Assembly (NCBI RefSeq): GCF_002976435.1
Contig: NZ_PUGF01000001.1
Location: 372,001 to 436,000 of the forward strand
DNA length: 64,000 nt
Direction of reading: 5' to 3'
From: Solimicrobium silvestre
Lineage (GTDB): Bacteria > Pseudomonadota > Gammaproteobacteria > Burkholderiales > Burkholderiaceae_D
The position numbers and the translations under genes were made by a program. Shown one piece after another: positions 20,440 through 44,920 of the stretch (its first letter is position 1; each line of letters begins with the position of its first letter). The notes under the pieces are model-generated. The model was not told the DNA's origin, made no database searches, and was given only the letters and a program-made list of their open reading frames with translations.

Positions 20440-21387
20440 GTGTTAATTCAATTTAGAACCTTTACTTTTCGCAAACTATTGTGCCCGCCGCCGTATCAAC
20501 TGTGCTTCACCAAGTTTTTGTTTTTTTTAACGATTACTTGCTGTTTCAGTACCGCATGCCTGGCCAATCCTGCATCTGCTGAACTTGCCGAGTCTGCAGC
20601 ACCTGCCACACCTGCGCCGATCCGCTTCCTGCTCAGTTTTGACGACGGCCCAAGCGGCAATAAATATAACAATTCAACCGAACAGGTTCTCGAGGTGCTG
20701 GCGAACAATCATGTTCAAGCTGGCATTAAGGCACTTTTTTTTACCCAGACACGCGCAGTCACTGGTGGCGGCACTGCAATCGGAAGAAAACTGATGCAGC
20801 GCGAATGGAATGAAGGTCATCTGCTAGGATTTCATACCGCGACACCACATCATTCCAATCACCGCTTTTTAAGTGAGCCAGAATTTGAACAATCACTGCA
20901 AGACGGCATTGCCGATTTAACGGAAATTACTGGCGTTGCGCCAAAATTAGTACGCCCGCCTTTTTGGAATTACGACAAACGCACATTCGCAGCGTATCAA
21001 CGCCACGGCATGCAAGTTTTACTGACTGATTTAAGTGCCAATGACGGAAAAATTTGGGGAGTAAATTTCAGCTTCCATAAACACAGCAATATGCTCAAAC
21101 AACTGGGTGAGCTACGCGCAAAATGGCTAGCTGGCAAGTTACCAGTCGTCGATGGCTGCACACCGATAGTCGTCACTTTTCATGATGTGAATACCTACAC
21201 ATCGAACCACGTTGAAGTGTACTTAGAAATTTTGGTGCAGGTTGCCGCCGAATTAGAGATGCCGACCACGACCATCCCTTTTTATACTAATCGCGATGAA
21301 CTAGAGCGCGCCGCATTAACTAGCGCCATGCATGACACATCAATCAAGCCGCCACTACCCGGAATATGGAATTGGCTATGGCAATAA
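20440..21387 (+). CDS. Polysaccharide deacetylase (NodB-like) family protein
   Basis: A protein of up to 315 aa with an N-terminal hydrophobic leader and a NodB-homology carbohydrate-esterase domain. Motif 1 SFDDGPSG supplies the catalytic Asp and a metal Asp, motif 2 HTATPHHSNHR the metal histidines, and motif 3 RPPFWNYDKR the substrate-groove Arg. Family members remove N- or O-acetyl groups from chitin, peptidoglycan or exopolysaccharide, metal-dependently. The start is GTG at 20440 without a convincing ribosome-binding site; a TTG within FTKFLFF would give a more compact leader. Its last 12 bases overlap convergently with the phosphopantetheinyl transferase gene of the aryl-polyene operon. 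Confidence 0.82.
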   Translation: MLIQFRTFTFRKLLCPPPYQLCFTKFLFFLTITCCFSTACLANPASAELAESAAPATPAPIRFLLSFDDGPSGNKYNNSTEQVLEVLANNHVQAGIKALFFTQTRAVTGGGTAIGRKLMQREWNEGHLLGFHTATPHHSNHRFLSEPEFEQSLQDGIADLTEITGVAPKLVRPPFWNYDKRTFAAYQRHGMQVLLTDLSANDGKIWGVNFSFHKHSNMLKQLGELRAKWLAGKLPVVDGCTPIVVTFHDVNTYTSNHVEVYLEILVQVAAELEMPTTTIPFYTNRDELERAALTSAMHDTSIKPPLPGIWNWLWQ

Positions 21388-22035
21388 TTTTACCCAATCA
21401 ACCGTTTCAAGTTTGGGTAATTCGCCAAGTTCAAACTCCGTGCACAGCACAATAGAAATGGCCGGATGCGGTAACGTATAACAGTAATCATTGTGCGGTA
21501 AAGCATGGCTTTGCGTAAGCTTGTAGTGCGCTTCCTTGCGACTCCAAAGTTGATAAAATGCAGCTACTTTGCTGTCATCAGCTTGCAAAGCTAGCCACGC
21601 GTTTTCATCTGCACTAAAAGCCTGCTGGCTTAATGCATGTAAATCACGGCTGGTATTTAACTCTTCAATATCAAGCCCTAATTGGGTCGACAAACTAACT
21701 GCGCAGGCAATCCAGTTGCCAGTATGCGACAAGCTAAATTCTGGGGTGTTGGTCAAATTAGGTATGTGCAATAACGGTGCGTTATTAGCTTGCTCAGTGA
21801 GCACAATACTGTTGACGGCGATGTTTAGCGTCCGAGCTAAAACACAACGCAATAGAAGCCGCCCGATTAAAAACTGACGTTGGCGCAATGGCCGCATAAA
21901 CCGTTTGTACCGCTCAATTTCCGAGATACTCAACCAAGAGAGCAAAGGAGCTAGCTGCTCATCAGTAACGGTACGGCTATCAATCAGCCATACCGTTGCG
22001 ATGCCGGCTATTTTATTTGTCGCCGATTCTGACAA
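21376..22035 (-). CDS. 4'-phosphopantetheinyl transferase (Sfp type) of APE operon
   Basis: A 219-aa Sfp-type transferase that should convert the two operon-encoded acyl carrier proteins to their holo forms. Signatures are GRLLLRCVLA, LSHTGNWIACAVS, GLDIEELN (metal-binding Asp/Glu) and LWSRKEAHYKL (WxxKEA). The only in-frame ATGs (22110, 22077) lie inside the preceding gene and before non-homologous residues. I therefore propose TTG 22035, which has AAGG six bases upstream and a 23-nt overlap with the upstream gene. This is the last gene of the 21-gene operon, corresponding to the PPTase of E. coli-type APE clusters. Confidence 0.82.
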   Translation of the reverse strand: MSESATNKIAGIATVWLIDSRTVTDEQLAPLLSWLSISEIERYKRFMRPLRQRQFLIGRLLLRCVLARTLNIAVNSIVLTEQANNAPLLHIPNLTNTPEFSLSHTGNWIACAVSLSTQLGLDIEELNTSRDLHALSQQAFSADENAWLALQADDSKVAAFYQLWSRKEAHYKLTQSHALPHNDYCYTLPHPAISIVLCTEFELGELPKLETVDWVKLLP

Positions 22036-22456
22036 AATCAGCCTTAAATGCAACGCCAGACATGATAGTACCAACATGACATTCAAACTCAGTAGCGCTT
22101 GGGTTTTCAACGTTGTTGTAGTTGTTGGTGATGTTTACGACGGCATTTGCGCCAAGTTCAACAGCACGTTTTTGCAGTGAAATCATGTCGGATAAAAATA
22201 CCCAGTTACAGGATTTTTCATCTGACTTACCAACAGCATTAGTTTTCAGACTGACCTTATCACTGCCTAGTGTTTTAATGATTGCAGGTGTAGTTTGACC
22301 AGCAAAATAAAATTTAACTGAATCACCAAGGCGCGCCTGAGCATCATTCGCAGCCATTGCACCGGCAATCGGTAACATCACTTTGGTGTCTGAAGCTTGT
22401 GCTGACATTGCTACTGCACTAGTAACCAACATTATTGCCAAAATCTTTTTCATCAT
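22013..22456 (-). CDS. Exported YbjQ-like small protein in APE operon
   Basis: A 147-aa exported protein. The leader MMKKILAIMLVTSAVAMSAQAS is followed by a domain whose second half (LQKRAVELGANAVVNITNNY, then the C-terminal GVAFKADFV strand) resembles the YbjQ/DUF74 fold of heavy-metal-binding-like proteins. Homologues are often mislabelled as excinuclease subunits. Two cysteines (in KSCNWVF and EFECHVG) may form a disulfide. It sits between the second ketosynthase and the PPTase genes, so a role linked to pigment export or assembly in the periplasm is inferred. Its biochemical activity is unknown. Confidence 0.7.
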   Translation of the reverse strand: MMKKILAIMLVTSAVAMSAQASDTKVMLPIAGAMAANDAQARLGDSVKFYFAGQTTPAIIKTLGSDKVSLKTNAVGKSDEKSCNWVFLSDMISLQKRAVELGANAVVNITNNYNNVENPSATEFECHVGTIMSGVAFKADFVRIGDK

Positions 22457-22495
22457 TTCTTCCTTTATTTAAAAAATCTACTTCGTTGAAATCAT

Positions 22496-23740
22496 TCAAT
22501 TTTGCACTTTTTTAAAAATCAATGACGTATTGATTCCTCCAAACGCAAAGTTATTACTCATCACATAGTCACACTGTAATTCTCTACCAGAGCCGACAAT
22601 ATAGTCCAGTTCAGCACACCGTGGATCAACATTTTCAAGATTAACGGTAGGCGCAAACCAGCCTTCACGCATCATCTCAATACTGATCCACGCTTCTAAA
22701 GCACCGCACGCGCCAAGCGTGTGGCCCATATAACTTTTTAAGGAACTGATCGGCGTATGTTTACCGAACACCTGGGCTGTTGCGTGCGACTCTGCAATAT
22801 CACCTTGCTCTGTGCCAGTTCCATGCGCATTCACATAGCCAATATCCGACGCTTGCAATCCTGCATCAGCTAACGCTAATTGCATGGCAATTTTCATTGT
22901 TTCAGAATTTGGTTGGGTTACATGGCAACCGTCGCTATTAGTCGCAAAGCCGACCAGTTCAGCGTAGATCGTGGCACCACGTGCCTGCGCATGTTCAAAC
23001 TCTTCCAAAATTAAACTACCTGCACCCTCGCCTATTACTAAACCATCGCGATTAGTATCAAACGGACGCGGTGTTGTGCTGGCTGCGTCATTTTTAACGC
23101 TGGTCGCAAATAAGGTATCAAACACTGCGGCTTCGGTTGCGCATAACTCTTCTGCACCGCCGGCGATCATGGCAAGTTGACGACCGCTGCGGATGGCTTC
23201 ATAGGCATAACCGATTCCCTGGCTACCTGAAGTGCAGGCACTTGAAGTGGTAATTACTCGCCCGGTTAAACCGAAGAACACGCCAATGTTTACCGGCGCG
23301 GTATGCGCCATCATTTTGATATAGGTGGTAGCGTTGATGCCTTTGGTGGTGCGCTCTTCCATCATGCGGCCAAAGTCGCCAATCGCGCTTGGCGTACCTG
23401 CTGATGAGCCGAATGAAACGCCCATTTGCCCACTTTTTATCAGCGGCGAATCTAACAAACCCGCATCAAGCAAGGCTAATTCGCTGGCGCGAGTCGCCAT
23501 TAATGCTATCCGCCCCATACTGCGAATAGCTTTACGATTATATTTTTCAGATAATTCAAACGGTACTGCCGGTGCGCCCAATTGCGTATTCAAGCCCTCG
23601 TAATCGGCCCATTCCGGCATATTGACGATGGCGTTTTGGTAACGACCAAGTCGCTCGCGTATCGTTTTCCAATCATTACCGATTGGACTAATACCGGCCA
23701 TGCCGGTGACTACCACCCGGTGGTTTTTCTGAAGCGTCAT
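22496..23740 (-). CDS. apeR: Beta-ketoacyl-ACP synthase, ApeR-like
   Basis: A 414-aa ketosynthase with a complete Cys-His-His triad: SSACTSGSQGIGYAYEAI (nucleophile), AHGTGTEQGD and KSYMGHTLGACGA. The NNFAFGGINTSLI motif closes the fold. It is the second active KS of the operon and corresponds by sequence and position to ApeR, which in E. coli-type APE clusters acts beside the main ApeO/ApeC heterodimer. Its start overlaps the end of the FabG-like gene by four bases. It could prime or finish polyene elongation; the exact step is not deducible here. Confidence 0.88.
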   Translation of the reverse strand: MTLQKNHRVVVTGMAGISPIGNDWKTIRERLGRYQNAIVNMPEWADYEGLNTQLGAPAVPFELSEKYNRKAIRSMGRIALMATRASELALLDAGLLDSPLIKSGQMGVSFGSSAGTPSAIGDFGRMMEERTTKGINATTYIKMMAHTAPVNIGVFFGLTGRVITTSSACTSGSQGIGYAYEAIRSGRQLAMIAGGAEELCATEAAVFDTLFATSVKNDAASTTPRPFDTNRDGLVIGEGAGSLILEEFEHAQARGATIYAELVGFATNSDGCHVTQPNSETMKIAMQLALADAGLQASDIGYVNAHGTGTEQGDIAESHATAQVFGKHTPISSLKSYMGHTLGACGALEAWISIEMMREGWFAPTVNLENVDPRCAELDYIVGSGRELQCDYVMSNNFAFGGINTSLIFKKVQN

Positions 23741-24462
23741 GCCATGCCTCCGTTCACTGAAATAACCTGGCGAGTCACATAGGCGGCATCGTCATTCATT
23801 AAAAAACTCACCACAGCGGCGACTTCTTCCGGCTTACCAATGCGGCGCGCAGGGATCATTTTTAACGCTTCTTCCATAGGGACACCGCTCACCATATCGG
23901 TATCGATCAAGCCCGGCGCTACACAGTTAACGGTAATAGCACGGCTAGCCAACTCAATGGCCAATGCCTTAGTAGCACCGATAATTCCCGCCTTGGCAGC
24001 GCTGTAGTTTACCTGACCGCGGTTACCTATTAAGCCGGAAACCGACGCCAAAGTGACGATACGGGCAGGCTTTTTACGACGTACCATCGGCATAATAAGC
24101 GGGTTTAACACATTATAAAAACCGTCTAAATTAGTCTGCAAAACGATGTCCCAATCTTCTCCCGACATCGCAGGGAAAGCATTGTCACGCGCCACACCGG
24201 CATTGCACACCACACCGTAATAACAGCCGTGCTGTTCAACATCGGCTAATAACGTAGTGGCGGTGGTATCACGGTCACTAATATCAAACTGTAAAACCCG
24301 GCAGGCGCGCCCCATCGCCGCAATCGTTTGAGCGACCTGATCTGCCTCATCGCGCATACTGCGGCAATGGATAACAATGTCATAGCCATCCGCCGCCAAG
24401 CGCAGCGCAATCGCTTTTCCAATACCTCGTGACGATCCGGTGACCAACACACTCTTATTCAT
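23737..24462 (-). CDS. apeQ: 3-ketoacyl-ACP reductase (FabG-like), ApeQ-like
   Basis: A 241-aa short-chain dehydrogenase/reductase that reduces the beta-keto group of the growing polyene with NADPH. TGSSRGIGKAIA is the cofactor loop, NAGVARDN the structural NAG motif, and SVSGLIGNRGQVNYSAAKAG supplies the Ser-Tyr-Lys catalytic residues. It is embedded between the dehydratase and ketosynthase genes, two bases from the former and overlapping the latter by four bases, as in other APE clusters. Confidence 0.92.
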   Translation of the reverse strand: MNKSVLVTGSSRGIGKAIALRLAADGYDIVIHCRSMRDEADQVAQTIAAMGRACRVLQFDISDRDTTATTLLADVEQHGCYYGVVCNAGVARDNAFPAMSGEDWDIVLQTNLDGFYNVLNPLIMPMVRRKKPARIVTLASVSGLIGNRGQVNYSAAKAGIIGATKALAIELASRAITVNCVAPGLIDTDMVSGVPMEEALKMIPARRIGKPEEVAAVVSFLMNDDAAYVTRQVISVNGGMA

Positions 24463-24464
24463 AA

Positions 24465-24935
24465 CTAACTTTCATTTGAACTATTCTGTAAAAAATCACT
24501 AGCATTGTCAGGCTGAAAAACCGTCACGGTTGCCGTTGCCAGTGCGTCAGCATTCGGGTCGTTCGCATCACTAATTGTGCATTCAAATGCGCCCAAACCA
24601 TTTTCATTTTGTAATACCCGCTGCACCTGCACTTGCAATACGCTGCCCAATAAAAAACTGGAACAGCTGCATTCATAACGGCGTGAGCCAAGTAAAAAAC
24701 CGACCTTCACTGCCTCTTCGCGCTGCTGTGCGGAATATCCGGCAAATGCGGCAATCGCTTGCGCCATGTATTCGATACCAATCCAGGCACCGACTCCCGC
24801 CCCATCAAAGAACCTGCTTTCAGGCGTAATGGTCAGCTCTGCACACAAGGACTCTGCATCGACCGCAATCACCCTGTCAAGCAACACCATCGGGTCTTTG
24901 TGCGGGATTAAGCTTCGAATTTCGGGAAAGCTCAT
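24465..24935 (-). CDS. apeP: 3-hydroxyacyl-ACP dehydratase (hotdog), ApeP-like
   Basis: A 156-aa hotdog-fold protein related to FabA/FabZ-like dehydratases of aryl-polyene clusters. PHKDPMVLLDRVI carries the likely catalytic His near residue 12, and IGIEYMAQAIAAFAGY corresponds to the central hotdog helix. It should remove water from 3-hydroxyacyl-ACP to give the conjugated double bond. A second dehydratase domain is fused to the ligase in this operon. The start codon abuts the stop of the ApeO-like gene with a one-base overlap. Confidence 0.87.
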   Translation of the reverse strand: MSFPEIRSLIPHKDPMVLLDRVIAVDAESLCAELTITPESRFFDGAGVGAWIGIEYMAQAIAAFAGYSAQQREEAVKVGFLLGSRRYECSCSSFLLGSVLQVQVQRVLQNENGLGAFECTISDANDPNADALATATVTVFQPDNASDFLQNSSNES

Positions 24936-26137
24936 CAGATTCGTCCCAATATTAACGTCGCATTCGATCCGCCAAACGCGAATGAATTACTAAGCGCCCA
25001 TTTTATCGGCCTGCCTAGCCGAGCACCAGGTGCAGCCACATTTAATACGGGTAAAGTCGGGTCTTGAACGCCATCCCACAAATGCGGCGGTAACTTGCCA
25101 TCGGCATTATCATCCTGCATCGCCAGCCAGCACAATGCCGCTTCAATCGCGGCCGCGGCACCTAAAGTGTGTCCGGTAAATGACTTGGTTGAACTTACTG
25201 CAACATCAGGGCCAAATAACTCATGAATCACCTTGGCTTCCATCGCATCGTTTTGACGCGTCGCCGTGCCATGCATATTAATATAATCAATCTGTGATGG
25301 CTGTAACTTTGCGCGTTGCAATGCCTGATTCATCGATAAACGCGCGCCACCACCGGCCGGATCAGGCGCGGATATATGATAACCATCCGAAGTCTCGGCC
25401 CAACCACACAATGCTACTGAAGTCGCACCTAAATTGGGTTCGCGCGTCATCAAAAACAACGCCGCGCCTTCACCAATATTGATCCCATTCCGGTTTGCGC
25501 TGAGTGGATTACATTGCTCAACACTGACCGATTCAAGAGCAGAAAACCCAGCCACGGTAAATGCGCAAAGCGTATCAACGCCGCCACACAATACCGCGTC
25601 ACACAAACCCATATTGATTAAGCGTGCGGCACTGGCAAGCGCTTTAGCGCTGGAAGAACAGGCGCTTGAATGTGCATAAGCGGGGCCGGTAACGCCTAAC
25701 TCCGTTGCCAACATGCTGGCAGGCGAACCCATTTCTTGCTGCCCATAATGGAAGTCGGCAGGGAAAGTGCCGTCAACCACAAATTGACGCAAGGCGCTTT
25801 CCGTACCGGCAATGCCTGACGTGCTGGTGCCGATCACCACACCAATCCGATCCGATCCAAAGCGTGCAATGACCGCATCCACTGCCGGGCGTATTTGCGC
25901 CAAAGCGGCTAACGCCATCTGGTTATTACGACTGAGCTGCGCAGTTGGCCAAGCGTCCATAGACGGCAACTCAGCGTCTACCTGCGCATCTACACGCCCA
26001 AGTGCCAGGCAGCGGCCGGCCGACCATGCTTCGGTCGGTTTCACGCCACTTTGGGCAAGATCAAGAAGTTGCTGTTTAATCGCACTATGCGTATTTCCCA
26101 ATGCACAGACAATTCCACATTCGTTTAGATACAACAT
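24935..26137 (-). CDS. apeO: Beta-ketoacyl-ACP synthase, ApeO-like
   Basis: A 400-aa condensing enzyme with intact catalytic residues: HSSACSSSAKALAS (Cys nucleophile), NMHGTATRQND and KSFTGHTLGAAAA (His residues), NSFAFGGSNATLI. I start at ATG 26137 (MLYLNECGIVCALG), preceded by GGAA at good spacing; an ATG 11 codons upstream lies before unrelated residues. In characterised APE systems ApeO pairs with the chain-length factor ApeC, which here is the first gene of the operon. It is expected to perform the iterative malonyl condensations. Confidence 0.88.
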   Translation of the reverse strand: MLYLNECGIVCALGNTHSAIKQQLLDLAQSGVKPTEAWSAGRCLALGRVDAQVDAELPSMDAWPTAQLSRNNQMALAALAQIRPAVDAVIARFGSDRIGVVIGTSTSGIAGTESALRQFVVDGTFPADFHYGQQEMGSPASMLATELGVTGPAYAHSSACSSSAKALASAARLINMGLCDAVLCGGVDTLCAFTVAGFSALESVSVEQCNPLSANRNGINIGEGAALFLMTREPNLGATSVALCGWAETSDGYHISAPDPAGGGARLSMNQALQRAKLQPSQIDYINMHGTATRQNDAMEAKVIHELFGPDVAVSSTKSFTGHTLGAAAAIEAALCWLAMQDDNADGKLPPHLWDGVQDPTLPVLNVAAPGARLGRPIKWALSNSFAFGGSNATLILGRI

Positions 26138-26166
26138 GCTGTGTTCCGTATTATTTTCTATTGTTA

Positions 26167-26727
26167 TCAAGGATTGTTAGATACTGACTGAATAATCAAT
26201 GAATAGTGATAACGCAAATTTTCCAACTTAACCGTACCACTCCAGCGCGGCATAGCACTGTAATTGATGATACAAACTACCTCGCCGCCCATCATTAACG
26301 TACGTCGCAACCCGTTATCTTCAATAGTCCAGCCGCTTGGCAAGGCTTTGCGAATCGATTCAATTGGCCATAAGGTGAGTTGAATATCTTCCAAAATATC
26401 TTCTGCCCGCACCTGTTTTGGCAGCATGACATGACGCCATGAGCTGACTTGTTTACCGTCGTAGTTCAAACTCAATACCCGCTGCCCAAACGCTATTCCA
26501 ACTAATTGCAACTGCGTGGCATCAACTTCCAGTGCCGCATCCAGATCATCAATTCTTCCGTTGCGTTCCACTATTAAATGCTGCTGCAATGAAATCGATT
26601 CGCCTAATTCTGCGGGCGCCAATTTCAAGTCCAGACGTGCCGGGAGCGGCGGTTGGCTCGCACAGGCGGTCAACAATAAAACCAGACAACAATTTAAACC
26701 CCAAACGCGCATCATTCTGATGTGCAT
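26167..26727 (-). CDS. apeN: DUF3261 lipoprotein, ApeN-like
   Basis: A 186-aa predicted lipoprotein: hydrophobic leader CCLVLLLTAC with lipobox LLTAC, then a DUF3261 domain (LDLKLAPAELGESISLQQHLIVE...). DUF3261 lipoproteins accompany aryl-polyene clusters and are thought to help place the lipid-anchored pigment in the outer membrane, together with the LolA-like and MMPL proteins encoded upstream. Its start overlaps the end of the flavoprotein gene by 16 bases. The first in-frame Met pair (MHIRMM) leaves the exact start uncertain by five codons. Confidence 0.82.
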   Translation of the reverse strand: MHIRMMRVWGLNCCLVLLLTACASQPPLPARLDLKLAPAELGESISLQQHLIVERNGRIDDLDAALEVDATQLQLVGIAFGQRVLSLNYDGKQVSSWRHVMLPKQVRAEDILEDIQLTLWPIESIRKALPSGWTIEDNGLRRTLMMGGEVVCIINYSAMPRWSGTVKLENLRYHYSLIIQSVSNNP

Positions 26728-27977
26728 AATGCCTCCAGAGCAGCCAGGCGACGTGCTGTTTCCTTCACCATAGGGTTAGTTAAATCCCAGGCATAACCAG
26801 CCAAGATCGATGCAATCATGCGGCGAATTTCAGGTTGATGTTCTTCATGAAAAATAATCTGCTGAAAACCGCCTGCGTACCACGATTCAACAAAAGCCCG
26901 GAAAGTATCAACGCCTTTTTTGAGTGGAATTCCATACTCAGCTTGCCAATCAACTTCTTCACCGGCAAATTGGCGCTGCAATAAAGCTGCCGCCAAACTA
27001 GCCGATTTGAATGCAATGGTGACGCCCGATGAAAACACCGGATCAAGAAATTCACCCGCATTGCCAAGCAAGGCATAGCCTTTGCCGGACAACGAAGCAA
27101 CGTTTGCTGAATAGCCGACGATATGACGCGCCGGCGTATCCCACACGGCATTTTCCAGCAAGGTTTTCAATGACTCATCTTCTGAAATAATCGCTTGCAG
27201 ACGCTCAACTTCAGTTCCTTGGTAACGATCAAGAAAACTGGTTTCCGCAACCACACCTAAGGAACAACGCCCGGCAGCAAAAGGAATCGTCCAAAACCAC
27301 ACATCGCAATGCTTGGGATGAACCGTCACCCTGATTTTATTACGGTCAAACTCCCCAGAAATGCGATCTTCAATATGCGTAAAAATTGCGCCGCGCACCG
27401 GGAAGTTGGACGGTGATTCCAACTTTAAAAGGCGCGGCAAAATACGCCCAAAACCGCTGGCATCGAGTATAAAACCTGCTTCAATTTGCGTAATCTTTCC
27501 GTCGGGATCTTTAACCGTGACTACCGGTTTTTCCTGCACAAGGTCAATCATCGTCACTTCATGACGATAACGAATTTGCGCGCCAAAACGTTCGGCTTCT
27601 TTGGCTAAAATATGATCGAATGTACCGCGTTGCACTTGATAAGTAGTACCCCAGCCGATGGTATGTTTATCGCGGAAATCAAAATCCGTGTATTGACCAT
27701 TGCGCACAAAGGCTGCGCCATTTTTAAACTGGAAACCAGCTTCCACAACGGCACGTAACATTCCCGCTTGCTCAAGGTATTCCATGCTTTGCGGCAGTAA
27801 GCTTTCACCGATTGAGAACCGAGGAAATTGCTCACGCTCCAACACCAGCACTTCACGCCCTTGTTGACGCAACAACGCCGCAGCCACTGAGCCAGCTGGC
27901 CCTGCGCCGATGATCAGTATTTCAACGGATTCCATTTGTTCCTTGGACTCATTGTCAATTTCATTTTCAATCGCCAT
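26712..27977 (-). CDS. FAD-dependent halogenase-like oxidoreductase
   Basis: A 421-aa flavoprotein of the tryptophan/phenolic halogenase superfamily. GAGPAG (residues 24-29) binds FAD, and GESLLP (57-62) is followed by AGFQFKNGAAF with Lys85 at the site of the catalytic lysine of phenolic halogenases. WFWTIP (227-232) fits the halogenase WxWxIP motif and FLDPVFSSG (310-318) fits FxxPxxSxG. The start is ATG 27977, overlapping the exporter gene by 11 bases; an ORF extending to 28031 is an artefact of that overlap. In this operon the likely substrate is the aryl head group, since xanthomonadins and some flexirubins are brominated or chlorinated. An oxygenase or reductase role without halogenation remains possible. 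Confidence 0.82.
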   Translation of the reverse strand: MAIENEIDNESKEQMESVEILIIGAGPAGSVAAALLRQQGREVLVLEREQFPRFSIGESLLPQSMEYLEQAGMLRAVVEAGFQFKNGAAFVRNGQYTDFDFRDKHTIGWGTTYQVQRGTFDHILAKEAERFGAQIRYRHEVTMIDLVQEKPVVTVKDPDGKITQIEAGFILDASGFGRILPRLLKLESPSNFPVRGAIFTHIEDRISGEFDRNKIRVTVHPKHCDVWFWTIPFAAGRCSLGVVAETSFLDRYQGTEVERLQAIISEDESLKTLLENAVWDTPARHIVGYSANVASLSGKGYALLGNAGEFLDPVFSSGVTIAFKSASLAAALLQRQFAGEEVDWQAEYGIPLKKGVDTFRAFVESWYAGGFQQIIFHEEHQPEIRRMIASILAGYAWDLTNPMVKETARRLAALEALCTSE

Positions 27978-30315: not shown

Positions 30316-30929
30316 CAGAATAACGCCGCTTCTTCAGGCTGCATTGCCGTGTCGCCGGTCTGTATTGCTGAAAATACGATGGTGGTATGGTCGCCGCTAG
30401 CTTCATTGATGTTGATGGTTTTAACGTAAGCACCGCCGTCCAGGCTAATAGCGCCAATTGCTTTGGCTAAGGCGGGCTCACGCGCTTTTAAAGCCACGTG
30501 CCAAGTCGCAGCGTCAGCGTTTCCATCCACTTCAAACAGCGTGTCGAGCTGCGCTAAATCGCCCGCCAATAATGAAAACAGCACGCTATTAATCATGCGT
30601 ACTGTCGGTTCTTGTTTTGCATCCAGCCGCATCGCAACCCGGTCGCCTTGGTAATTCACGATTTCATCGCGCGTTAAACGTAGCGTATTCGGAAACGGTT
30701 GTAAGGTACGCCATACCACGCCCTTGCCTGCGACCACACAAAAACGGCCATTCGACGCCAACGGTTTTTTCATACCGTTTAATTGCTTGGTTTGATCAAA
30801 GCGGCCACACAGCACGGACGGTTTTGCCAACATAGATTGAATCTTGGTGACTACCGGACTAGGCGCGGCAACCGAGGCGTTAGACGCAAGCGCCGCCCAG
30901 CAAAAAAGTGTACATAGTTGTTTCAACAT
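30315..30929 (-). CDS. apeL: LolA-like periplasmic carrier, ApeL-like
   Basis: A 204-aa exported protein with signal MLKQLCTLFCWAALASNASVAAPS and a LolA-type fold (VCGRFDQTKQLNGMKKPLASNGRF is the conserved first sheet, VVWRTLQPFPNTLRLT the second). LolA proteins carry lipoproteins across the periplasm; in APE clusters the paralogue is believed to carry the lipidated polyene. Start ATG 30929 overlaps the thioesterase gene end by seven bases. Confidence 0.85.
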   Translation of the reverse strand: MLKQLCTLFCWAALASNASVAAPSPVVTKIQSMLAKPSVLCGRFDQTKQLNGMKKPLASNGRFCVVAGKGVVWRTLQPFPNTLRLTRDEIVNYQGDRVAMRLDAKQEPTVRMINSVLFSLLAGDLAQLDTLFEVDGNADAATWHVALKAREPALAKAIGAISLDGGAYVKTININEASGDHTTIVFSAIQTGDTAMQPEEAALF

Positions 30930-31357
30930 GGATCAACTCCTAACTTAGTAAGTAACGCTGGCGGCGACACAAAACACATTTCGCCGCTTGCGATATTGAC
31001 TGCCACTTGGGTCGTGCTGGCACGGGTTAAACGCTTTCCCGTTGCGGCATCACTGATCAAGTAATTAATTTTTAAGCGGCTTTCCCACTCTACAATTTCA
31101 GCCCGCAATTTCAACCGTTGATTAAAGACAGCTGCACCGACATAGCGCAACTGCATATCGATAATCGGCCAGGAAAAACCGGAGGCCAGCATTTCAGAAT
31201 AGTTGTAGCCGATTTTATTCAGCAATTCACAACGCACAATTTCAAGGTATTTGACGTAGTTACCATGCCAGACGATCTGCATCGGATCCAGGTCAAAAAA
31301 TTGCACTTTAATTTCTGTTTCAGCCCACCAGCGGCTTGATTCAGCTTGCCTACGCAT
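30923..31357 (-). CDS. apeK: 4-hydroxybenzoyl-CoA-type thioesterase, ApeK-like
   Basis: A 144-aa hotdog thioesterase. FFDLDPMQIVWHGNYVKYLE is the 4HBT signature with the catalytic Asp and the WHGNY helix start. It could release the finished polyene from its ACP or edit mis-primed carriers. The eight-base overlap with the ammonia-lyase gene (ATG inside the lyase end) indicates translational coupling. Confidence 0.87.
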   Translation of the reverse strand: MRRQAESSRWWAETEIKVQFFDLDPMQIVWHGNYVKYLEIVRCELLNKIGYNYSEMLASGFSWPIIDMQLRYVGAAVFNQRLKLRAEIVEWESRLKINYLISDAATGKRLTRASTTQVAVNIASGEMCFVSPPALLTKLGVDPC

Positions 31358-32906: not shown

Positions 32907-33876
32907 CAGAAATATCCAATTGAGGTAAGTGCCAATAATCGTAAAAATTAAACCATTGCAGCGGAGCACTTAAACAGTGTGCTTCAAGTCGCGCTACATA
33001 TGCTGCTACTAATTCGGTCAATGCCTGTTCGCGCCCTTTGCGTGGTAATCGCACTGCATCACGCAATAATTCAAAGTGAATTTCTGAGTGCGTTTCGGTA
33101 CCACTTTCGCGCCGCATTGAAAACAACATATAAATCGGACATTGCAAAATACTCGCCAACACATAAGGGCCGATCGGAAAAGCGGCTGGCTGTCCCAAAA
33201 ATGTAGTTACTGCCACGCGCGGATTTTCTGCCACGGGAACTCTGTCACCGGCAATAACAATAAATTCGCCCTGCGCTACCTTCTCCGCCAAAAGCATGGC
33301 AGTTGCAGGTGTCATTTCTGATACCTGCATCAAATTAAGCTGGCTGTTTGGGTTGATCGATCCCAGCATGTTATTAAATACTTGTGCATGCTTGGTATGC
33401 ACCAAAACAGTCAGTTTTAAGTTATTGCGTTTACTCGACAAAACCCGGCATAAATCCAGATTTCCCAAATGGGAACAGATCAATATCGCGCCGCGTTTTT
33501 CCGCTATCAGTTGTTCCATTTGTTCAACACCGAAATACTGCACCGATGACGTATCAAATAGCCCGCTCCATAACAACATTTTATCGAGCATCATTTCAGC
33601 AAAAGCTGCAAAGTGCTGTATCACTTTAAAAATACTTGTACCTATCGGCGCAATCTGGTTTACGCGCTTCAAATACTCGCGTGAAGCTCGGCGTGCTGAC
33701 GAGCTTACCAATACGTACCACAATAAAACCGGGTACAAAATCAACCGGAACGGCCAGCGTCCAAATACTTTACATATCCAGAACATCAGCCGAATTCCCG
33801 CTAGAAAGCTGACTTCGTTGATCGCTGCCCAATGAGCGGTTTGAGTCGCTGGAGCTTTATCCTCGCCCGGTTTCAT
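32893..33876 (-). CDS. LpxL/HtrB-like acyltransferase
   Basis: A 327-aa membrane-associated acyltransferase of the lipid A lauroyltransferase type. SHLGNLDLCRVL gives the HxxxxD/E-like catalytic motif and GDRVPVAENPRV the downstream conserved segment; one or two hydrophobic helices lie at residues 25-60. In E. coli-type APE clusters a single protein (ApeJ) combines glycosyltransferase and acyltransferase; here they are separate genes with an ATGA overlap. It probably acylates the sugar- or glycerol-type anchor of the pigment. Confidence 0.85.
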   Translation of the reverse strand: MKPGEDKAPATQTAHWAAINEVSFLAGIRLMFWICKVFGRWPFRLILYPVLLWYVLVSSSARRASREYLKRVNQIAPIGTSIFKVIQHFAAFAEMMLDKMLLWSGLFDTSSVQYFGVEQMEQLIAEKRGAILICSHLGNLDLCRVLSSKRNNLKLTVLVHTKHAQVFNNMLGSINPNSQLNLMQVSEMTPATAMLLAEKVAQGEFIVIAGDRVPVAENPRVAVTTFLGQPAAFPIGPYVLASILQCPIYMLFSMRRESGTETHSEIHFELLRDAVRLPRKGREQALTELVAAYVARLEAHCLSAPLQWFNFYDYWHLPQLDISDATR

Positions 33877-34622
33877 CGCCGATTCATCTTTCTAACTAAT
33901 AAGCGTGGAATACGCAACAACATGCCAAAAAATAAAATGATATGCATTCGTGTAATCAGCACATTGTCGAACCAAACGCGGAAATGCGAAACTCCGTCAC
34001 TCGGATACGTAACACGGGTTGGCAAGTTAACGACATCTAGCCCTTGCCAATACAAACGCACCAAAATATCAGTATCAAAATTCATCCGCGCACCGATTTT
34101 TTGATGGGCAATTAGCTCCATCACAGCTGCAACCGGATACGCACGAAAGCCGCACATGGAATCTTTAATATCGAACGACAGCGTATTTATCCAAACCCAG
34201 ATATGCGTCAGATAACGCGCATAAAGTCGAATTTTCGGCACAGATTCGTCAAAAACAGGGCAGCCAGCAATAATCGCTTCCGGCTGCTTAGCCGCTGCGG
34301 CCAAAAATTGAGGAATATCTGCCGTGCAGTGCTGTCCGTCTGCATCAACCTGCAAAACATGGGTATAGCCTTCAGAAGCTGCATAGGTAAAACCAGCTAA
34401 TACCGCCGCACCTTTTCCTGAATTAACGTTGAGCCGTAATAACTTTAATTGTGACGGGTCCGCTACTTCTGCAAGCAACGAATCAAGCTTTTGTGCACAA
34501 CCGGCTGAACTTCCATCATCCACCAAAATACAGGGCACTTTATGTGCGAGCACGGCAGCGACCACGGCACCAATCGCGTGCTCGTGATCATAGACCGGGA
34601 TCACAACGCAAAACTTAAGCAC
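33873..34622 (-). CDS. Family 2 glycosyltransferase
   Basis: A 249-aa GT-A glycosyltransferase of the dolichyl-phosphate-mannose-synthase-like group. FCVVIPVYDHEHAIG opens the domain, ILVDDGSSAG and LQVDADGQH carry the nucleotide-sugar and DxD metal motifs, and a hydrophobic helix (RMHIILFFGMLLRIPRLL) ends the protein. I assign a GTG start at 34622: it overlaps the stop of the methyltransferase gene in GTGCTTAA and has GGAG six bases upstream, whereas the ATG at 34667 adds residues out of line with the family. It should add a sugar to the polyene lipid anchor. Confidence 0.85.
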   Translation of the reverse strand: MLKFCVVIPVYDHEHAIGAVVAAVLAHKVPCILVDDGSSAGCAQKLDSLLAEVADPSQLKLLRLNVNSGKGAAVLAGFTYAASEGYTHVLQVDADGQHCTADIPQFLAAAAKQPEAIIAGCPVFDESVPKIRLYARYLTHIWVWINTLSFDIKDSMCGFRAYPVAAVMELIAHQKIGARMNFDTDILVRLYWQGLDVVNLPTRVTYPSDGVSHFRVWFDNVLITRMHIILFFGMLLRIPRLLVRKMNRR

Positions 34623-35694
34623 TTGCCACTCCAAATCGAAGCAATGAATGGCAGTAGCCAATGTCATCGCGCACCGTTAATAATTCCAAACCGGCTAATT
34701 CAGCCAAGCGTATGTAATCAGTACTCTCATATATTTTGCTATTGCCACTCGCCATCGAGGTAAAGTAAGGCGAGGTATTGATTAAGCAGTAAGAAGCGAT
34801 ATCGTAGCGCTGACGATCCCAGAACGTATCCATAATAATGAGCTGCCCTTTTGGTCCAAGAGCTGCTACGGCACGCTGCAAAATAGTAGCAATGACGGCC
34901 TCACTAAAACAGCTCAGGAACTGGCTCATCCAGATAACGTCCATACCCGATTTAAGCGGTTGTTCCGCATTGAGCAAATCAGTCGGATGTAAATGCGCCC
35001 GCTCACGCACGCCTGCATCTTGCAACGATTTTTCGGCGACGGCTAACTGAATCGGCAAATCGACCAGATGTAATTGAACTGCCGAATTGTAGGCAAGCGC
35101 GGCGCAACTGAATTTGCCAGTATTGGCACCGATATCCATGACATGCTTAGGCGCAGTTGCAAAAATATCGGCCAAAATAGTAGGGAAAGACGTATCGGAA
35201 TAATGGTGATCAAAGGCGAACCAACTTGCTTTAGCTGGTTCAGGCAACTCGGACAAACCTTCATAGATGGTTGGCCACGGGCCTAATACGTTCAGTCCAA
35301 TCGGTTGTTCTTTATCTAGCGATTCGGCCAATTTTGCCAAACCTTCATAGCAAACATCCTGATTAAAATCGAAGTTAATCTGGGTGATTTTGTCGGTGAG
35401 GATGCAGTAACCAGTTTTATCCAGCACGTAGTTTCCATCTTGAAGATAAACCACACCGGCGGATAAACATGTTTCCAGCACGACCTTTAACGCATAGTCA
35501 GTCCAGCATTTAGTTGCTGACAATTCCGCCACACTCAACCCACTTTGCCCAGCATCAGATAAGGCCTGCAACATGCCGCGTTTCCACGCATAGTGGACGC
35601 ACTGAAAAACTACCGGGCCAAAAGCAATTTTTTGCGCTTCAAATCGGGCAGAAAATGCGCTTTGGTTTTTAGGTGAAAAATTTTTATTGAGCAT
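34615..35694 (-). CDS. SAM-dependent O-methyltransferase
   Basis: A 359-aa class I methyltransferase. The N-terminal part (about 1-130) looks like the winged-helix dimerisation region of small-molecule O-methyltransferases. MDIGANTGKFS near residue 190 is the SAM-binding motif I, LHLVDLP motif II, and MDVIWMSQFLSCFSE with LGPKGQLIIMDTFW the later motifs. It fits methylation of a phenolic hydroxyl on the aryl head group, as in flexirubins and E. coli APE. It lies eight bases after the ligase/dehydratase gene. Confidence 0.85.
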   Translation of the reverse strand: MLNKNFSPKNQSAFSARFEAQKIAFGPVVFQCVHYAWKRGMLQALSDAGQSGLSVAELSATKCWTDYALKVVLETCLSAGVVYLQDGNYVLDKTGYCILTDKITQINFDFNQDVCYEGLAKLAESLDKEQPIGLNVLGPWPTIYEGLSELPEPAKASWFAFDHHYSDTSFPTILADIFATAPKHVMDIGANTGKFSCAALAYNSAVQLHLVDLPIQLAVAEKSLQDAGVRERAHLHPTDLLNAEQPLKSGMDVIWMSQFLSCFSEAVIATILQRAVAALGPKGQLIIMDTFWDRQRYDIASYCLINTSPYFTSMASGNSKIYESTDYIRLAELAGLELLTVRDDIGYCHSLLRFGVASA

Positions 35695-35702
35695 AGTGCC
35701 GC

Positions 35703-37499
35703 TTATTGAGTGTCATCGTGAATTGCATCAGCAAATAAAATTCGACCGCTGGAATGTTGCCAGGTCGATGTGAAATATGAAAAACTTAAACAGCCCTTTT
35801 GCTGGTCGAAATCGAGCTTCAGATTAACTGGGCTATCCGGCAAGATTACGTGCTGAAATTTAAGCGCATGAATGGCGCGAAACTGCGTAGGTAAATCAAA
35901 AGTTTGTCGCCCAATTTTGATGGCCCAGTCAACCTGAACTACTCCTGGCAATACCGGCGCTTCAGGAAAGTGACCTGAAAAATACAGCAGGTTTGGCGGC
36001 CAGATAACATCAAACTCAACACTATTTACATCGCTATGGCGTATTTTATAATGCGGCGTAAGCACCGCCTGCTCAGGGGCTTTAGCCTCATTCTCAAACA
36101 AGGCCTGCAACATGGCATGTGGTGTTTTTCCTTGCAAATTAATGGGGAAACTATCCACATAACGCCATTTTCGCGGTATTGCAACGGGCTCAACAATCCC
36201 GACCAGAAGATCTTTTAACTGACGGTTAACGGCCAGCTTCCCTGCGCTTAGCAGCAGATTTTTTCCCAGCTCAGAAATAACGACTACCGCCGCAAGGTGC
36301 TGACGTTGGTTCGAATTCAACTGTTCACTCAACACGATTACTTTTACTTCTGCAACCAGTGGCGACGTGGCCAACTTCTGCTCGATCGCATCCAATGAGA
36401 TACGTTTTTCTTCGATTTTAACTATCCGGTCAGCGCGCCCTTGAAGAATAAATCCACCATTTTTATGCGCTTGAGCACGATCAGCAAGCGTATGCCACGC
36501 ATCGCTTAATAAGTGCGGAGAGCGCACTTCTAACAAGCACTCATCACTCGAAGTACGCCATTCAACATTAGGCAACATCTGCCATGAGTTATCTTGTACA
36601 TCATCTTGTTCAGTCCGCCGTTGACGCCACGCGATACCGCCAGTTTCTGAACTGCCATAAATTTCAATCGGCATTTTCCCAAGCAGAGCGGCAGATGACT
36701 GTGCAACATCGGCTGGTAATGCGCCACCGGAAGAAAACACCGCATGCAAATGACTATTGGCACCGGACCAAGACAAATGCATAGGTAAACGCTTCAGGTG
36801 CGCGGGACTTGAAATCAACGCACATGAGCGCGTCGACATCAGCTGTGCCAACTCTTCAGGGAACATCACAGTGCGCGCATGAATTGCGCGTCCACTGACT
36901 AGCGGCCACAATACTTTAAAGAGTAAGCCGTAAATATGTTGATGCGTAACGGTTGAGATTATCTCGGCGTCTGCCAGTCTGGCATCAAACAATTGCTCAA
37001 GAGTGGCGACTTCAATCGCTAGCTGCGACAGTTTTTTAGGGATGGCCTGTGCGGCTCCCGTTGTGCCTGATGTATGGACTACCAAGCCGACAAATTGCGC
37101 ATCAAGCGCAGCATAGTCAAGCGCTGTCTCTGCAGTAGAGTCTGGAGTAGTGCTAGGCATAGCGTTAAGTAAAAGCGGCGCGCAATCCGCTGGGAACTCA
37201 CCTAAAAATCCATCCACGGATAGCTTCAGTGCATTGTTACTCGATGCAAGTGTGTCGGCGGTGAGCCAAATAGTTTTTCCTGCATGCCAGGCACCAAGCA
37301 AAGCCGCAGCAAACTCAATACTGTCCTCTAAATACAGTGCAAAATTTTGACCGGATAAGGGGCTTAATAACGTCTGCCAGCTTGCTACCCGTGCTATAAA
37401 GTCATCACTGCTAACAACCGCCCCATTTCGCCAGCCAATTGTTGAAGTGGATGTATTTGCTGCCATGCGCTGAAGTAAATTAAGCATCGAATCAGACAT
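35703..37499 (-). CDS. Fused acyl-ACP ligase and hotdog dehydratase (ApeH-ApeI fusion)
   Basis: A 598-aa two-domain enzyme. Residues 1-about 450 are an AMP-forming ligase: VVHTSGTTGAAQAIPKKL (phosphate loop), EIYGSSETGGIAWRQ (A5) and LQGRADRIVKIEEKRISLD (A7-A8 hinge). It should activate the aryl acid and load it on an ACP. Residues about 465-598 are a FabZ/ApeI-type dehydratase with FSGHFPEAPVLPGVVQVDWA, containing the catalytic His. In E. coli these are separate proteins, ApeH and ApeI. The start overlaps the end of the membrane-protein gene by eight bases. The fusion couples priming to double-bond formation. Confidence 0.88.
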   Translation of the reverse strand: MSDSMLNLLQRMAANTSTSTIGWRNGAVVSSDDFIARVASWQTLLSPLSGQNFALYLEDSIEFAAALLGAWHAGKTIWLTADTLASSNNALKLSVDGFLGEFPADCAPLLLNAMPSTTPDSTAETALDYAALDAQFVGLVVHTSGTTGAAQAIPKKLSQLAIEVATLEQLFDARLADAEIISTVTHQHIYGLLFKVLWPLVSGRAIHARTVMFPEELAQLMSTRSCALISSPAHLKRLPMHLSWSGANSHLHAVFSSGGALPADVAQSSAALLGKMPIEIYGSSETGGIAWRQRRTEQDDVQDNSWQMLPNVEWRTSSDECLLEVRSPHLLSDAWHTLADRAQAHKNGGFILQGRADRIVKIEEKRISLDAIEQKLATSPLVAEVKVIVLSEQLNSNQRQHLAAVVVISELGKNLLLSAGKLAVNRQLKDLLVGIVEPVAIPRKWRYVDSFPINLQGKTPHAMLQALFENEAKAPEQAVLTPHYKIRHSDVNSVEFDVIWPPNLLYFSGHFPEAPVLPGVVQVDWAIKIGRQTFDLPTQFRAIHALKFQHVILPDSPVNLKLDFDQQKGCLSFSYFTSTWQHSSGRILFADAIHDDTQ

Positions 37500-38043
37500 G
37501 GTTCAAACGCTTAAAACGTAGTCGATATAAAAACTCGCCACCAAACAGCACTCCCATCAAACCATAAGAAATTACACCTGTATAAAGCGACCAAATTGCT
37601 TCCGATGCCCAAATCGCCGTAACCAGCGCAATGGCACCATTCACGATAAAAAACACACACCAAATTTGCGTAACACGGCGCGTATAAGCAACCGCAACTA
37701 ACGGCAAATCGGGCTCGCTCATACGGGCGAAGAACTCAACCATCGAAGGTGGAAAAACCAAACTATAAGAAAACGTTGCCAACAAAACCGCATTAACCAG
37801 AACCGGATAAAGCTTTAATGGCAACAGCGCATTCCACCAAACCGCTATACCCGCTAACAAGATCACAACAGCAACCGAATAGCGCGCCAATTTACTAATT
37901 TTAAAAGAGGATAGACGCGTTGCAGCAGCCAGCAATAACAACCCTGCCAGCCAGCGTGGTTCTATTTTCCCGTGGCCTAACCAAATCGCCAGCGGGTAAC
38001 AGAGAGTAATGAGTACCGTTAATACGGTTAGTAAACGATTTAT
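37492..38043 (-). CDS. apeG: Polytopic membrane protein, ApeG-like, apparent ATA start
   Basis: A 183-aa inner-membrane protein with about five hydrophobic helices, found in aryl-polyene operons (COG4648-like); role unknown. The first standard start, TTG at 37941, would delete a stretch that reads as an N-terminal helix plus conserved-looking loop (residues 2-20 INRLLTVLITLCYPLAIWL, then GHGKIEPRW). The frame is open upstream without ATG, GTG or TTG as far as ATA at 38043. That ATA overlaps the stop of the ACP gene as ATAA, where an ATGA overlap would be expected, and has GGAG eight bases before it. A G-to-A change of the original start, rescued by coupling, is the simplest reading. Confidence 0.7.
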   Translation of the reverse strand: MNRLLTVLTVLITLCYPLAIWLGHGKIEPRWLAGLLLLAAATRLSSFKISKLARYSVAVVILLAGIAVWWNALLPLKLYPVLVNAVLLATFSYSLVFPPSMVEFFARMSEPDLPLVAVAYTRRVTQIWCVFFIVNGAIALVTAIWASEAIWSLYTGVISYGLMGVLFGGEFLYRLRFKRLNHV

Positions 38044-38312
38044 GCTAACTGCTCCGGAGTAAGTTCTGAGAGTGAATTAACCACATCCTCAATAGTGCGA
38101 ATTTCTTTAAACACTTCAGGCGCTAAACGCTTACCCGTCAACTGTTTCAATTTGACAGCCAGATCAACTGCGTCAATGCTGTCAATATCAAGATCCGCAT
38201 ATAAATTGGACTGCGGCGTTAAGCTCGATTTATCTAACTCGAACATTTGCGCAAGCAGATCAACTACCCACACATACAACTCATCTTTGCTCATTTCACT
38301 AATCATTATCAT
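38040..38312 (-). CDS. apeF: Acyl carrier protein, ApeF-like
   Basis: A 90-aa ACP. YADLDIDSIDAVDLAVKL contains the Ser of the DSID phosphopantetheine site. Three in-frame ATGs are clustered (38318, 38312, 38306); I take 38312 because GAAGGA lies six bases upstream. It is the second of two carrier proteins in the operon and needs the PPTase encoded at its end. One ACP likely holds the aryl starter and the other extender intermediates, but which does which is not visible. Confidence 0.9.
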   Translation of the reverse strand: MIMISEMSKDELYVWVVDLLAQMFELDKSSLTPQSNLYADLDIDSIDAVDLAVKLKQLTGKRLAPEVFKEIRTIEDVVNSLSELTPEQLA

Positions 38313-38325
38313 GATCATTCCTTCT

Positions 38326-38580
38326 TTATTTTTTTCTAGCGTGTTCTATCAGCTCAGTTAAAGCGCGTACCGATGCAAAATGGCGGCGTGTATCTTCTGA
38401 GTCTGCTGATAGCGTAATTCCGTAGCGCTTTTGCAGTGCCACACCTAATTCCAATGCATCGATGGAATCAAGTCCTAAACCTTCAACAAAAAGAGGTGCA
38501 TCGGAATCGATATCGGCTGCACTGATGTCTTCAAGTTGCAGCACTTCAATAATTAAATTTTTAACTTCTAGTTCAAGCAT
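38326..38580 (-). CDS. apeE: Acyl carrier protein, ApeE-like
   Basis: An 84-aa ACP with VEGLGLDSIDALELGVALQ around the phosphopantetheinylated Ser. The ATG at 38580 overlaps the stop of the preceding acyltransferase gene by eight bases (ATGCTTGA), so I prefer it to an in-frame ATG seven codons upstream. The helix II region is acidic as expected for ACP recognition by the ketosynthases. Confidence 0.9.
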   Translation of the reverse strand: MLELEVKNLIIEVLQLEDISAADIDSDAPLFVEGLGLDSIDALELGVALQKRYGITLSADSEDTRRHFASVRALTELIEHARKK

Positions 38581-39388
38581 GACGTTGGATTTCCTCAGCA
38601 AAATAGGTCTGTAAATAGGTTGTCAGGTGCCGTGCCGACATGACGTCACTCACGGCATTGTTTGTAAATTGGTCAATCTCAATATCATCTTTCACTTCAA
38701 TCCGAAAAGTGGCTGGGCGTAGCGGTATTTGCCACCATTTTTCGCCTTTACTCAATGTCTTCGGATAACAAGTAATTACTACTGGCGTTACATTACATTT
38801 TGCGCGAACGGCAATATTAGCCGCGCCTCTTTTTAAGCAAATCTGACCGTCCGAAGGAGTGCGCGTCCCTTCCGGAAATACGATTAAATTACTGCCGCAC
38901 TCTAGCGAGTTAATACAATCATTGACGAGTTCACTGCCATGATTATTAAAAATATAGCCCGCTGCGATGACTGCCCCGCGGGTGAATAGATTCGTTTGTA
39001 AATCGGCTTTTACTATGCAATCGGCACGTTTAACAAAAGCCATTAAAAATACGGTGTCAATTAAAGTGGGATGATTTGCTAAAATTAATAAACCAGAGCG
39101 ATCCAATCGCTGACGCCCAATAATTTCATAACGCAGCACACCTAGACCCTGCATCAAACCGACAAAAAATCGAAAAGCCACGCGTATCATTGTTCTTGCG
39201 AGTGCGGTCCGGTAAGCTCGGTTCCATACCAACAGATTCAACAAAGGACAAACCAAAACACGTAAAAATAGGCCGCCAATTCCAAAAACCGCAAAGCAAA
39301 ATCCTGTTGCCAACAAACGCCAACCATAGAAGGCGCGCTCAAGCACTTCGACTCCAGCTCCAAAGTCGCCTTTCGGCAGTGCGCTCAA
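38573..39388 (-). CDS. apeD: PlsC-type lysophospholipid acyltransferase, ApeD-like
   Basis: A 271-aa membrane-bound acyltransferase. NHPTLIDTVFL has the HxxxxD catalytic motif and VFPEGTRTPSDG the glycerol-phosphate-binding FPEGTR motif; two hydrophobic helices precede them (about residues 23-50). In APE systems this enzyme is thought to transfer the polyene to a lipid acceptor. The start overlaps the end of the chain-length-factor gene by 50 bases; an internal Met start cannot be excluded, since the first 15 residues are not typical. Confidence 0.85.
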   Translation of the reverse strand: MSALPKGDFGAGVEVLERAFYGWRLLATGFCFAVFGIGGLFLRVLVCPLLNLLVWNRAYRTALARTMIRVAFRFFVGLMQGLGVLRYEIIGRQRLDRSGLLILANHPTLIDTVFLMAFVKRADCIVKADLQTNLFTRGAVIAAGYIFNNHGSELVNDCINSLECGSNLIVFPEGTRTPSDGQICLKRGAANIAVRAKCNVTPVVITCYPKTLSKGEKWWQIPLRPATFRIEVKDDIEIDQFTNNAVSDVMSARHLTTYLQTYFAEEIQRHA

Positions 39389-40106
39389 ACACCGGGTCGC
39401 CGCGCAGATAAAATTTCAATACTTCTAAACTGGCTGGCATCGCATTTTGCTCAGGTAGATTCGGCTCAACAGCTTTCCAACTTAATTGAATCACATTGCG
39501 CTCTGCTGACACTGCAGACACTGCTGGCACCATCAGCCAAGCCCAAGCATGAGGTTGCTCTTCGCAATCTTCAAATTGCGACAAGAGCGAAGGCAAACAA
39601 TTGTCAAATACCACCAACAATACTGAGGGAGCGCCGTCCGCCAGCAAACTGCACGCTTCAATTACCCCATGTTCAATCGTGCACTGTCCGGCCGCTAAGG
39701 CAATATGATTAGCTTGATCACTGCGTGCAATAGAAAATAAACCAGCACTAGCATTATGCACCGCCAAGCCGAAGCTGGTAGGTGAAAGCGGCTCGTTTTG
39801 TACGACGTTTGCTAACAGCTCCATCGCGCGTGATACATCACCATGGCGCGAGCAAAAAACTGTTGGGATAGTATGTTGGTCACTAGTGCGGCCATCCAGA
39901 CATTGATAAGCCACTTCCAGCGCCATTTTGCCTAAAAAACCAGCGCGTCTACGCAACATGGAAGGCATTTTCAAGACACTTGGCTCAGCACCAGCTTGAA
40001 TAACAAAAGGCGCTTCAGCCCAGTCATTCCACTCCTGATTTGTGACTAAATTCGGAGCCCATGCGGCATGAGCTGCTACTGAAAATTGAACCTTATTGGT
40101 CTGCAT
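39339..40106 (-). CDS. apeC: Chain-length-factor-like ketosynthase subunit, ApeC-like
   Basis: A 255-aa protein homologous to the N-terminal half of ketosynthases and the first gene of the operon. It lacks the HGTGT and GHT histidine motifs. Aligning its nucleophile elbow with the operon's own KS places Gln141 (AAGQCTIEHGVIEA) at the cysteine position, the classical chain-length-factor substitution. In characterised APE systems ApeC forms a heterodimer with ApeO and sets polyene length. The ATG at 40106 has only a weak ribosome-binding site. The promoter should lie in the 540-bp gap upstream. Confidence 0.82.
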   Translation of the reverse strand: MQTNKVQFSVAAHAAWAPNLVTNQEWNDWAEAPFVIQAGAEPSVLKMPSMLRRRAGFLGKMALEVAYQCLDGRTSDQHTIPTVFCSRHGDVSRAMELLANVVQNEPLSPTSFGLAVHNASAGLFSIARSDQANHIALAAGQCTIEHGVIEACSLLADGAPSVLLVVFDNCLPSLLSQFEDCEEQPHAWAWLMVPAVSAVSAERNVIQLSWKAVEPNLPEQNAMPASLEVLKFYLRGDPVFERTAERRLWSWSRSA

Positions 40107-44913: not shown

Positions 44914-44920
44914 ATTATCT

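Follow-up and report, generated by a model that had tools for sequence, protein, structure and literature searches.

Aryl polyenes (APEs) are yellow membrane pigments that are common in Gram-negative bacteria. We compared the gene clusters described for these and related pigments with an operon lying at 21376-40106 of a 64,000-nt stretch of the Solimicrobium silvestre draft genome (5.24 Mb, 99% complete); this whole stretch is called the window below. The unusual feature of the operon is that a methyltransferase and a flavoprotein, which are mostly found in different operons, stand together in it. The APE cluster of Escherichia coli, as given by the apeA-R table for strain CFT073 (PMC8253772) and by a genomic stretch of another strain (L128), shares with the window the core enzymes, the exporter, and the Lol-like genes, but the table lists no lyase, flavoprotein, or 4'-phosphopantetheinyl transferase (PPTase), and the stretch contains neither lyase nor flavoprotein. 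The glycosyltransferase and acyltransferase joined in E. coli ApeJ are two separate genes in the window, and whereas the proposed starter of the E. coli pigment is 4-hydroxybenzoate, the window operon has a lyase. When the DNA of the window apeO was searched against E. coli genomes, no DNA-level match was obtained. An initial annotation of the window, made from the sequence alone, had predicted a pigment unlike that of E. coli; these comparisons bear out a different gene content. The annotation had also counted the methyltransferase in the extra set behind this difference, and here it erred, as the E. coli stretch encodes a relative that is 40% identical.

The flx and dar genes of Chitinophaga pinensis, as described in PMC3992019, share with the window an initial tyrosine ammonia-lyase step, chain building resembling that of fatty acids, LolA, an exporter, and ring methylation. 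The C. pinensis flexirubin is a dialkylresorcinol ester, whereas the window genome yielded no DarB match. The xanthomonadin and arcuflavin clusters share the APE core and a halogenase-type gene; arcuflavin obtains hydroxybenzoate via a XanB2-type chorismate enzyme, in contrast to the lyase of the window operon. In the literature on APE, xanthomonadin, and flexirubin (titles and the starts of abstracts, mostly of open-access papers), we found no description of the function of the flavoprotein or of this operon.

The operon of Acinetobacter baumannii (CP035931.1) comprises 20 annotated genes in the order and direction of the window, including the lyase, the flavoprotein (56% identical), the small open reading frame (ORF), and the PPTase, and it lacks the methyltransferase. 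Its 19 matched proteins are 26-63% identical to those of the window, with the DUF3261 protein recognized by annotation only. A Pseudoalteromonas operon has the same order, with lyase and flavoprotein present.

Conservation was followed further using the flavoprotein as query against genome contigs, which matched at least 596 stretches, of which 578 were relatives. The best 80 of these were kept, and with 10 more they made up 90 loci that were compared with the 21 window proteins. Three pairs among them are probable duplicates, and selection by the flavoprotein biases the set to its carriers. Absences at the operon ends are soft, since a number of loci are short or truncated in the flanks. The loci span Burkholderiales, Xanthomonadales, and Myxococcota, among others. 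The ligase was present in 82, the GT2 glycosyltransferase in 82, the DUF3261 protein in 84, the lyase in 71, the small ORF in 61, and the PPTase in 44, and the methyltransferase in only 2 (L023 and L032, both nearest kin). Gene order was kept in the 20 operon-bearing loci among 26 displayed, save for a moved lyase or ApeO in L075 and L054, and this shared order excludes chance as the cause of the arrangement. What the analysis shows is which genes are present and in what order, how far they are conserved, and which catalytic motifs they encode. Judged by A. baumannii, Pseudoalteromonas, and the 90 loci, the predicted tailoring set of the window is not exotic but what lyase-type APE operons usually contain, with the exception of the methyltransferase. 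The earlier view of the extra tailoring set as distinctive therefore survives for that gene only, A. baumannii having the rest in the same order.

The best named flavoprotein matches among those listed were from two Undibacterium metagenome-assembled genomes (83 and 84% identity), and other Oxalobacteraceae came next; by these matches the host would probably be Undibacterium or a nearby genus. Of four same-genus genomes, G002 gave a flavoprotein match at E 1e-20 or better, and no match at that level was obtained in G001, G003, and G004, of which one is 81% complete. Six Cupriavidus loci (L057, L058, L065, L082, L083, and L085) encode near position 10001 a flavoprotein homologue of 65-70% identity with no APE operon around it.

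Core enzymes, starter lyase, and tailoring enzymes

All 21 ORFs in the ORF list at 21376-40106 are on the minus strand, and as called they overlap at 15 of 20 junctions, the biggest gap being 98 bp; some long overlaps are due to upstream TTG or GTG starts and would be shorter if an internal ATG were used. Functions were assigned by family scans (Pfam, NCBIfam, and TIGRFAM models) and by matches to solved structures. The first gene encodes an ApeC-like chain-length factor, the ketosynthase partner (39339..40106; ketosynthase-N-type, PF13723, 214 bits), and its best solved match is 6qsp_B, while that of the ApeO-like elongating ketosynthase (24935..26170) is 6qsp_A. We take 6qsp to be the Xenorhabdus ApeO-ApeC complex. 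That a structure of this kind exists is stated in PMC8358021, which reports one from A. baumannii. The family scans further identified an ApeR-like ketosynthase (22496..23740; NF006587, PRK09116, 717 bits against a cut-off of 470), an ApeQ-like FabG ketoreductase (23737..24462; TIGR01831, 394 bits, above cut-off), an ApeP dehydratase (24465..24935; PF22817, 79 bits), and an AMP ligase fused to an ApeI-like dehydratase, corresponding to ApeH-ApeI (35703..37499; PF00501 and PF22818). Two acyl carrier proteins (ACPs), both PF00550, are encoded at 38326..38601 (NF006617, 97 bits, cut-off 70) and 38040..38318 (NF003757, 104 bits, cut-off 65). The export genes are an ApeM-like MMPL/RND exporter (27967..30315; PF03176), an ApeL-like LolA carrier (30315..30929; PF19574/PF03548), and an ApeN-like DUF3261 protein (26167..26727; PF11659, 142 bits). 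The annotation of a complete, compact, and mostly overlapping APE-type operon was thus upheld, as was that of its own lyase and flavin-halogenase-like enzyme, for which both family matches and motifs were found.

From these genes we infer the reactions, the individual substrates, and the final pigment structure. The lyase would deaminate tyrosine to 4-coumarate, which the ligase-dehydratase would load on an ACP activated by the PPTase. The conjugated chain would then be built by the ApeR and ApeO-ApeC ketosynthases, the ketoreductase, and the ApeP and ApeI dehydratases. The ApeB/FlxJ-type enzyme may methylate the phenol ring, and the flavoprotein may introduce a second, oxidative change, probably on the aryl head, by halogenation or hydroxylation. 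The acyltransferases, GT2 enzyme, thioesterase, MMPL exporter, LolA, and DUF3261 protein would link the pigment to a lipid and carry it to the outer membrane.

The aromatic amino acid ammonia-lyase (31350..32969, with an internal ATG near 32906; PF00221, 537 bits) has a 4-methylideneimidazol-5-one (MIO) motif, a Tyr-His pair in motif 1, and Gln in motif 2. In the 89 loci whose lyase is more than 45% identical, probable duplicates included, the motif 1 pair was YH in 81, FH in 5, and uncovered in 3, that is, Tyr/Phe-His in 86 of 86 covered; motif 2 was HNQDK in 88 of 88 covered (1 uncovered), and the MIO stretch was GASG in 87, GDSG in 1, and uncovered in 1. C. pinensis FlxA is described as combining a motif 1 like that of histidine ammonia-lyase with a motif 2 of the tyrosine/phenylalanine ammonia-lyase type, and as preferring tyrosine about 1000-fold over phenylalanine while giving no product from histidine (PMC3992019). 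The FlxA-type combination of the MIO triad ASG, Gln in motif 2, and xHis in motif 1 is found in the window lyase, which by these motifs is most likely a tyrosine ammonia-lyase. Its identification as HutH was rejected: it scores 401 bits on the HutH model TIGR01225 (cut-off 539), and the true HutH, having a Ser-His pair, is elsewhere in the genome at 683 bits.

An ordinary lyase-type APE operon is in our judgement the best explanation of this gene set, with a probability of about 0.85. Several points weigh against it. The 39900-40800 region yielded no sigma-70-like promoter, against an average of 2.2 in shuffled sequences. The window lyase scores 324 bits on the FlxA model NF053541, below its cut-off of 700; the HutH of the same genome scores nearly the same (322 bits), and hence the model does not discriminate here. 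Phenylalanine is a possible substrate of the lyase, and the C. pinensis flexirubin formula given in PMC3992019 contains no halogen, the presence of the flavoprotein in that cluster lying outside the comparison. We also considered a flexirubin-type pigment, in which the polyene would be esterified to a dialkylresorcinol. Several products resemble the FlxA, FlxB, FlxJ, and LolA2 models, all below cut-off; the 99%-complete genome, however, yielded zero DarB matches at E 1e-10, and the operon ketosynthases gave no sufficient match to the DarB model (22 bits for ApeR), which in 14 control genomes produced matches in 2, none above cut-off. With no DarB match, a flexirubin-type ester is very improbable.

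Returning to an ordinary APE operon, the predicted function of its S-adenosylmethionine-dependent methyltransferase (34615..35694) also allows two readings. The protein scores 430 bits on the FlxJ family model NF053543 against a cut-off of 560, making it a relative rather than a member, and it shares 40-44% identity with proteins from E. coli and Enterobacter. Its solved relatives are 3dp7 (338 bits), SibL (64 bits), presumably a ring C-methyltransferase, and weaker O-methyltransferases. The head of the E. coli APE is C-methylated, and the E. coli relative of the methyltransferase sits in the place of ApeB. ApeB is proposed to methylate the aromatic head of that pigment (PMC8253772), and in flexirubin feeding one ring deuterium was lost, indicating ring methylation (PMC3992019). 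Because of the kinship to the FlxJ family, 3dp7, and SibL, the ApeB proposal, and the deuterium loss, ring C-methylation of the phenol is more likely than O-methylation. The label of O-methyltransferase in the initial annotation, which would predict a methoxy head, has in its favor a PF00891 match (32 bits, cut-off 22) and the O-methyltransferases among the weak solved matches; given the much stronger FlxJ-family and 3dp7 matches and SibL as next solved relative, we regard it as unlikely.

The flavin adenine dinucleotide (FAD) flavoprotein (26712..28031, with an internal ATG near 27977; PF04820) contains Lys103 and, at 245-250, WFWTIP. A WxWxIP motif together with a conserved Lys is defining for flavin-dependent halogenases, and the flavoprotein has both. 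Lys103 and WxWxIP were each kept in 90 of 90 loci, a set selected by likeness to the flavoprotein. Among solved structures, 3nix matches it best (371 bits); ChlB4, 3e1t ("Halogenase"), CmlS, and PltA come next with 114-131 bits. We did not accept a halogenase function from the Pfam name alone; following the motif check, halogenation is a motif-level possibility, and the motifs and solved relatives support a halogenase-like chemistry. That the flavoprotein is a true halogenase, giving a methylated and brominated or chlorinated pigment, is a tentative reading to which we give somewhat less than even odds. It is favored by the conserved motifs and by the halogenase names of the solved relatives ranking after 3nix, but 3nix itself carries only the name "Flavoprotein/dehydrogenase", and the models of QhpG, LodB, and GoxB, which are not known to halogenate, match the flavoprotein too. 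By gene presence rather than orthology, Xanthomonas clusters with a halogenase gene are associated with brominated pigments, and Lysobacter enzymogenes, lacking the gene, is reported to show no bromine pattern (PMC3691225). That the flavoprotein is instead a monooxygenase acting on the ring or chain, or an oxidase of another kind, has close to an even chance: weaker likeness to hydroxylases, monooxygenases, and QhpG points in this direction, whereas the retention of halogenase motifs across the whole locus set, and the rank of halogenases as the closest solved proteins with a functional name, argue against it.

Joint occurrence of methyltransferase and flavoprotein

We surveyed 300 Burkholderiales genomes, in 38 of which ApeR was above cut-off. 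Across the 300, the methyltransferase was strongly matched (at least 319 bits) in 12; 24 genomes had the flavoprotein at E<=1e-70 and 23 had the lyase at E<=1e-110. Weaker methyltransferase matches in G085, G150, and G239 were dropped, and G167 and G302, with flavoprotein but without ApeR above cut-off, were not counted among the 38. Of 14 control genomes, 1 gave a match to the methyltransferase and 0 to ApeR. Counted per contiguous stretch, the 38 ApeR genomes had both genes in 1 (the window only), the flavoprotein only in 18, the methyltransferase only in 11, and neither in 8 (Fisher one-sided p 0.0005, kinship ignored); in the last class, L164 spans 6 kb, although the search covered its entire genome.

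A strict mutual exclusion was nevertheless rejected. In G296 and G325 (family f44), which carry both in split APE gene sets, the flavoprotein lies next to ApeO on a second APE fragment. A third f44 genome, G267, has flavoprotein genes elsewhere, and in the stretches taken these are not accompanied by ApeO. With kinship ignored throughout, recounting with G296 and G325 gave 3/18/9/8 (p 0.014), adding G267 gave 4/18/8/8 (p 0.042), and the first count taken by genus, with two genera in two classes each, gave 1/14/6/8 (p 0.031). In a class survey of 303 whole genomes, as distinct from APE operons, the methyltransferase was found in 16 and the flavoprotein in 16, and both in the genome of the window and in G522. 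The flavoprotein of G522 is in a lyase-type operon; its methyltransferase is on another contig, with no APE neighbors within the 14.7 kb taken.

In a locus of G283 (L134), the methyltransferase lies between the MMPL and DUF3261 genes, which is the slot of the flavoprotein in its relatives L151, L154, L155, and L158. In the methyltransferase tree, the window groups first with L023 and L032 (97/94), and L134 joins next (98/98). The ketosynthase-reductase tree places L134 with flavoprotein-bearing loci of family f21 and the window with loci of family f1; the operon of one of these, L022, lacks the methyltransferase. These trees are compatible with a gain by transfer as well as with repeated loss. 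In the long ApeP-ApeO intervals of L152 and L162, no tailoring gene was recognized among ORFs inspected by eye, without a family scan.

Remaining genes, neighbors, and meaning of the gene pair

The other genes of the operon, in order, encode a PlsC-type, ApeD-like acyltransferase (38573..39388; PF01553); a COG4648-like membrane protein in the ApeG place (37492..37941), labeled by position against the E. coli table, its IspA Pfam match being below cut-off; the GT2 glycosyltransferase (33873..34667; PF00535); an LpxL-like acyltransferase (32893..33876; PF03279); an ApeK-like 4HBT thioesterase (30923..31357; PF13279); a small protein with a signal-like N-terminus (22013..22456), with only a below-threshold YbjQ match; and, as last gene, the PPTase (21376..22110; PF01648 and PF22624). 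The small protein has the same place in A. baumannii, where its counterpart is annotated "excinuclease".

The last ORF is convergent, with a 12-bp overlap, with a plus-strand polysaccharide deacetylase gene (20440-21387). Relatives of the latter (57-74% identity) occur in 11 loci from Undibacterium, Duganella, Rugamonas, Massilia, and kin, and the listed genes of the arc and flx pigment clusters also include deacetylases. At the other end, the divergent neighbor at 40646 encodes a tail-specific protease by family scan. Beyond it are an alkylsulfatase-like gene adjoining a GMC oxidoreductase gene (42931-46540, minus strand), a LysR regulator gene on the opposite strand at 46703, and genes for large histidine kinases, one with several response-regulator domains (55097-61796, minus strand).

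Because the G283 methyltransferase occupies the flavoprotein slot of its kin, the methyltransferase and flavoprotein might be mostly alternatives acting on the phenol head at its two ortho positions, and the head of the window pigment might be doubly substituted, with a methyl and a halogen or hydroxyl group within a single lipid. We consider this doubtful. If true, the pigment would be new, and the operon would provide a clean system for the function of a widespread APE flavoprotein. The natural presence, absence, and replacement of the flavoprotein relative to the methyltransferase offer a way to test the flavoprotein, with this operon as a test case for its function.

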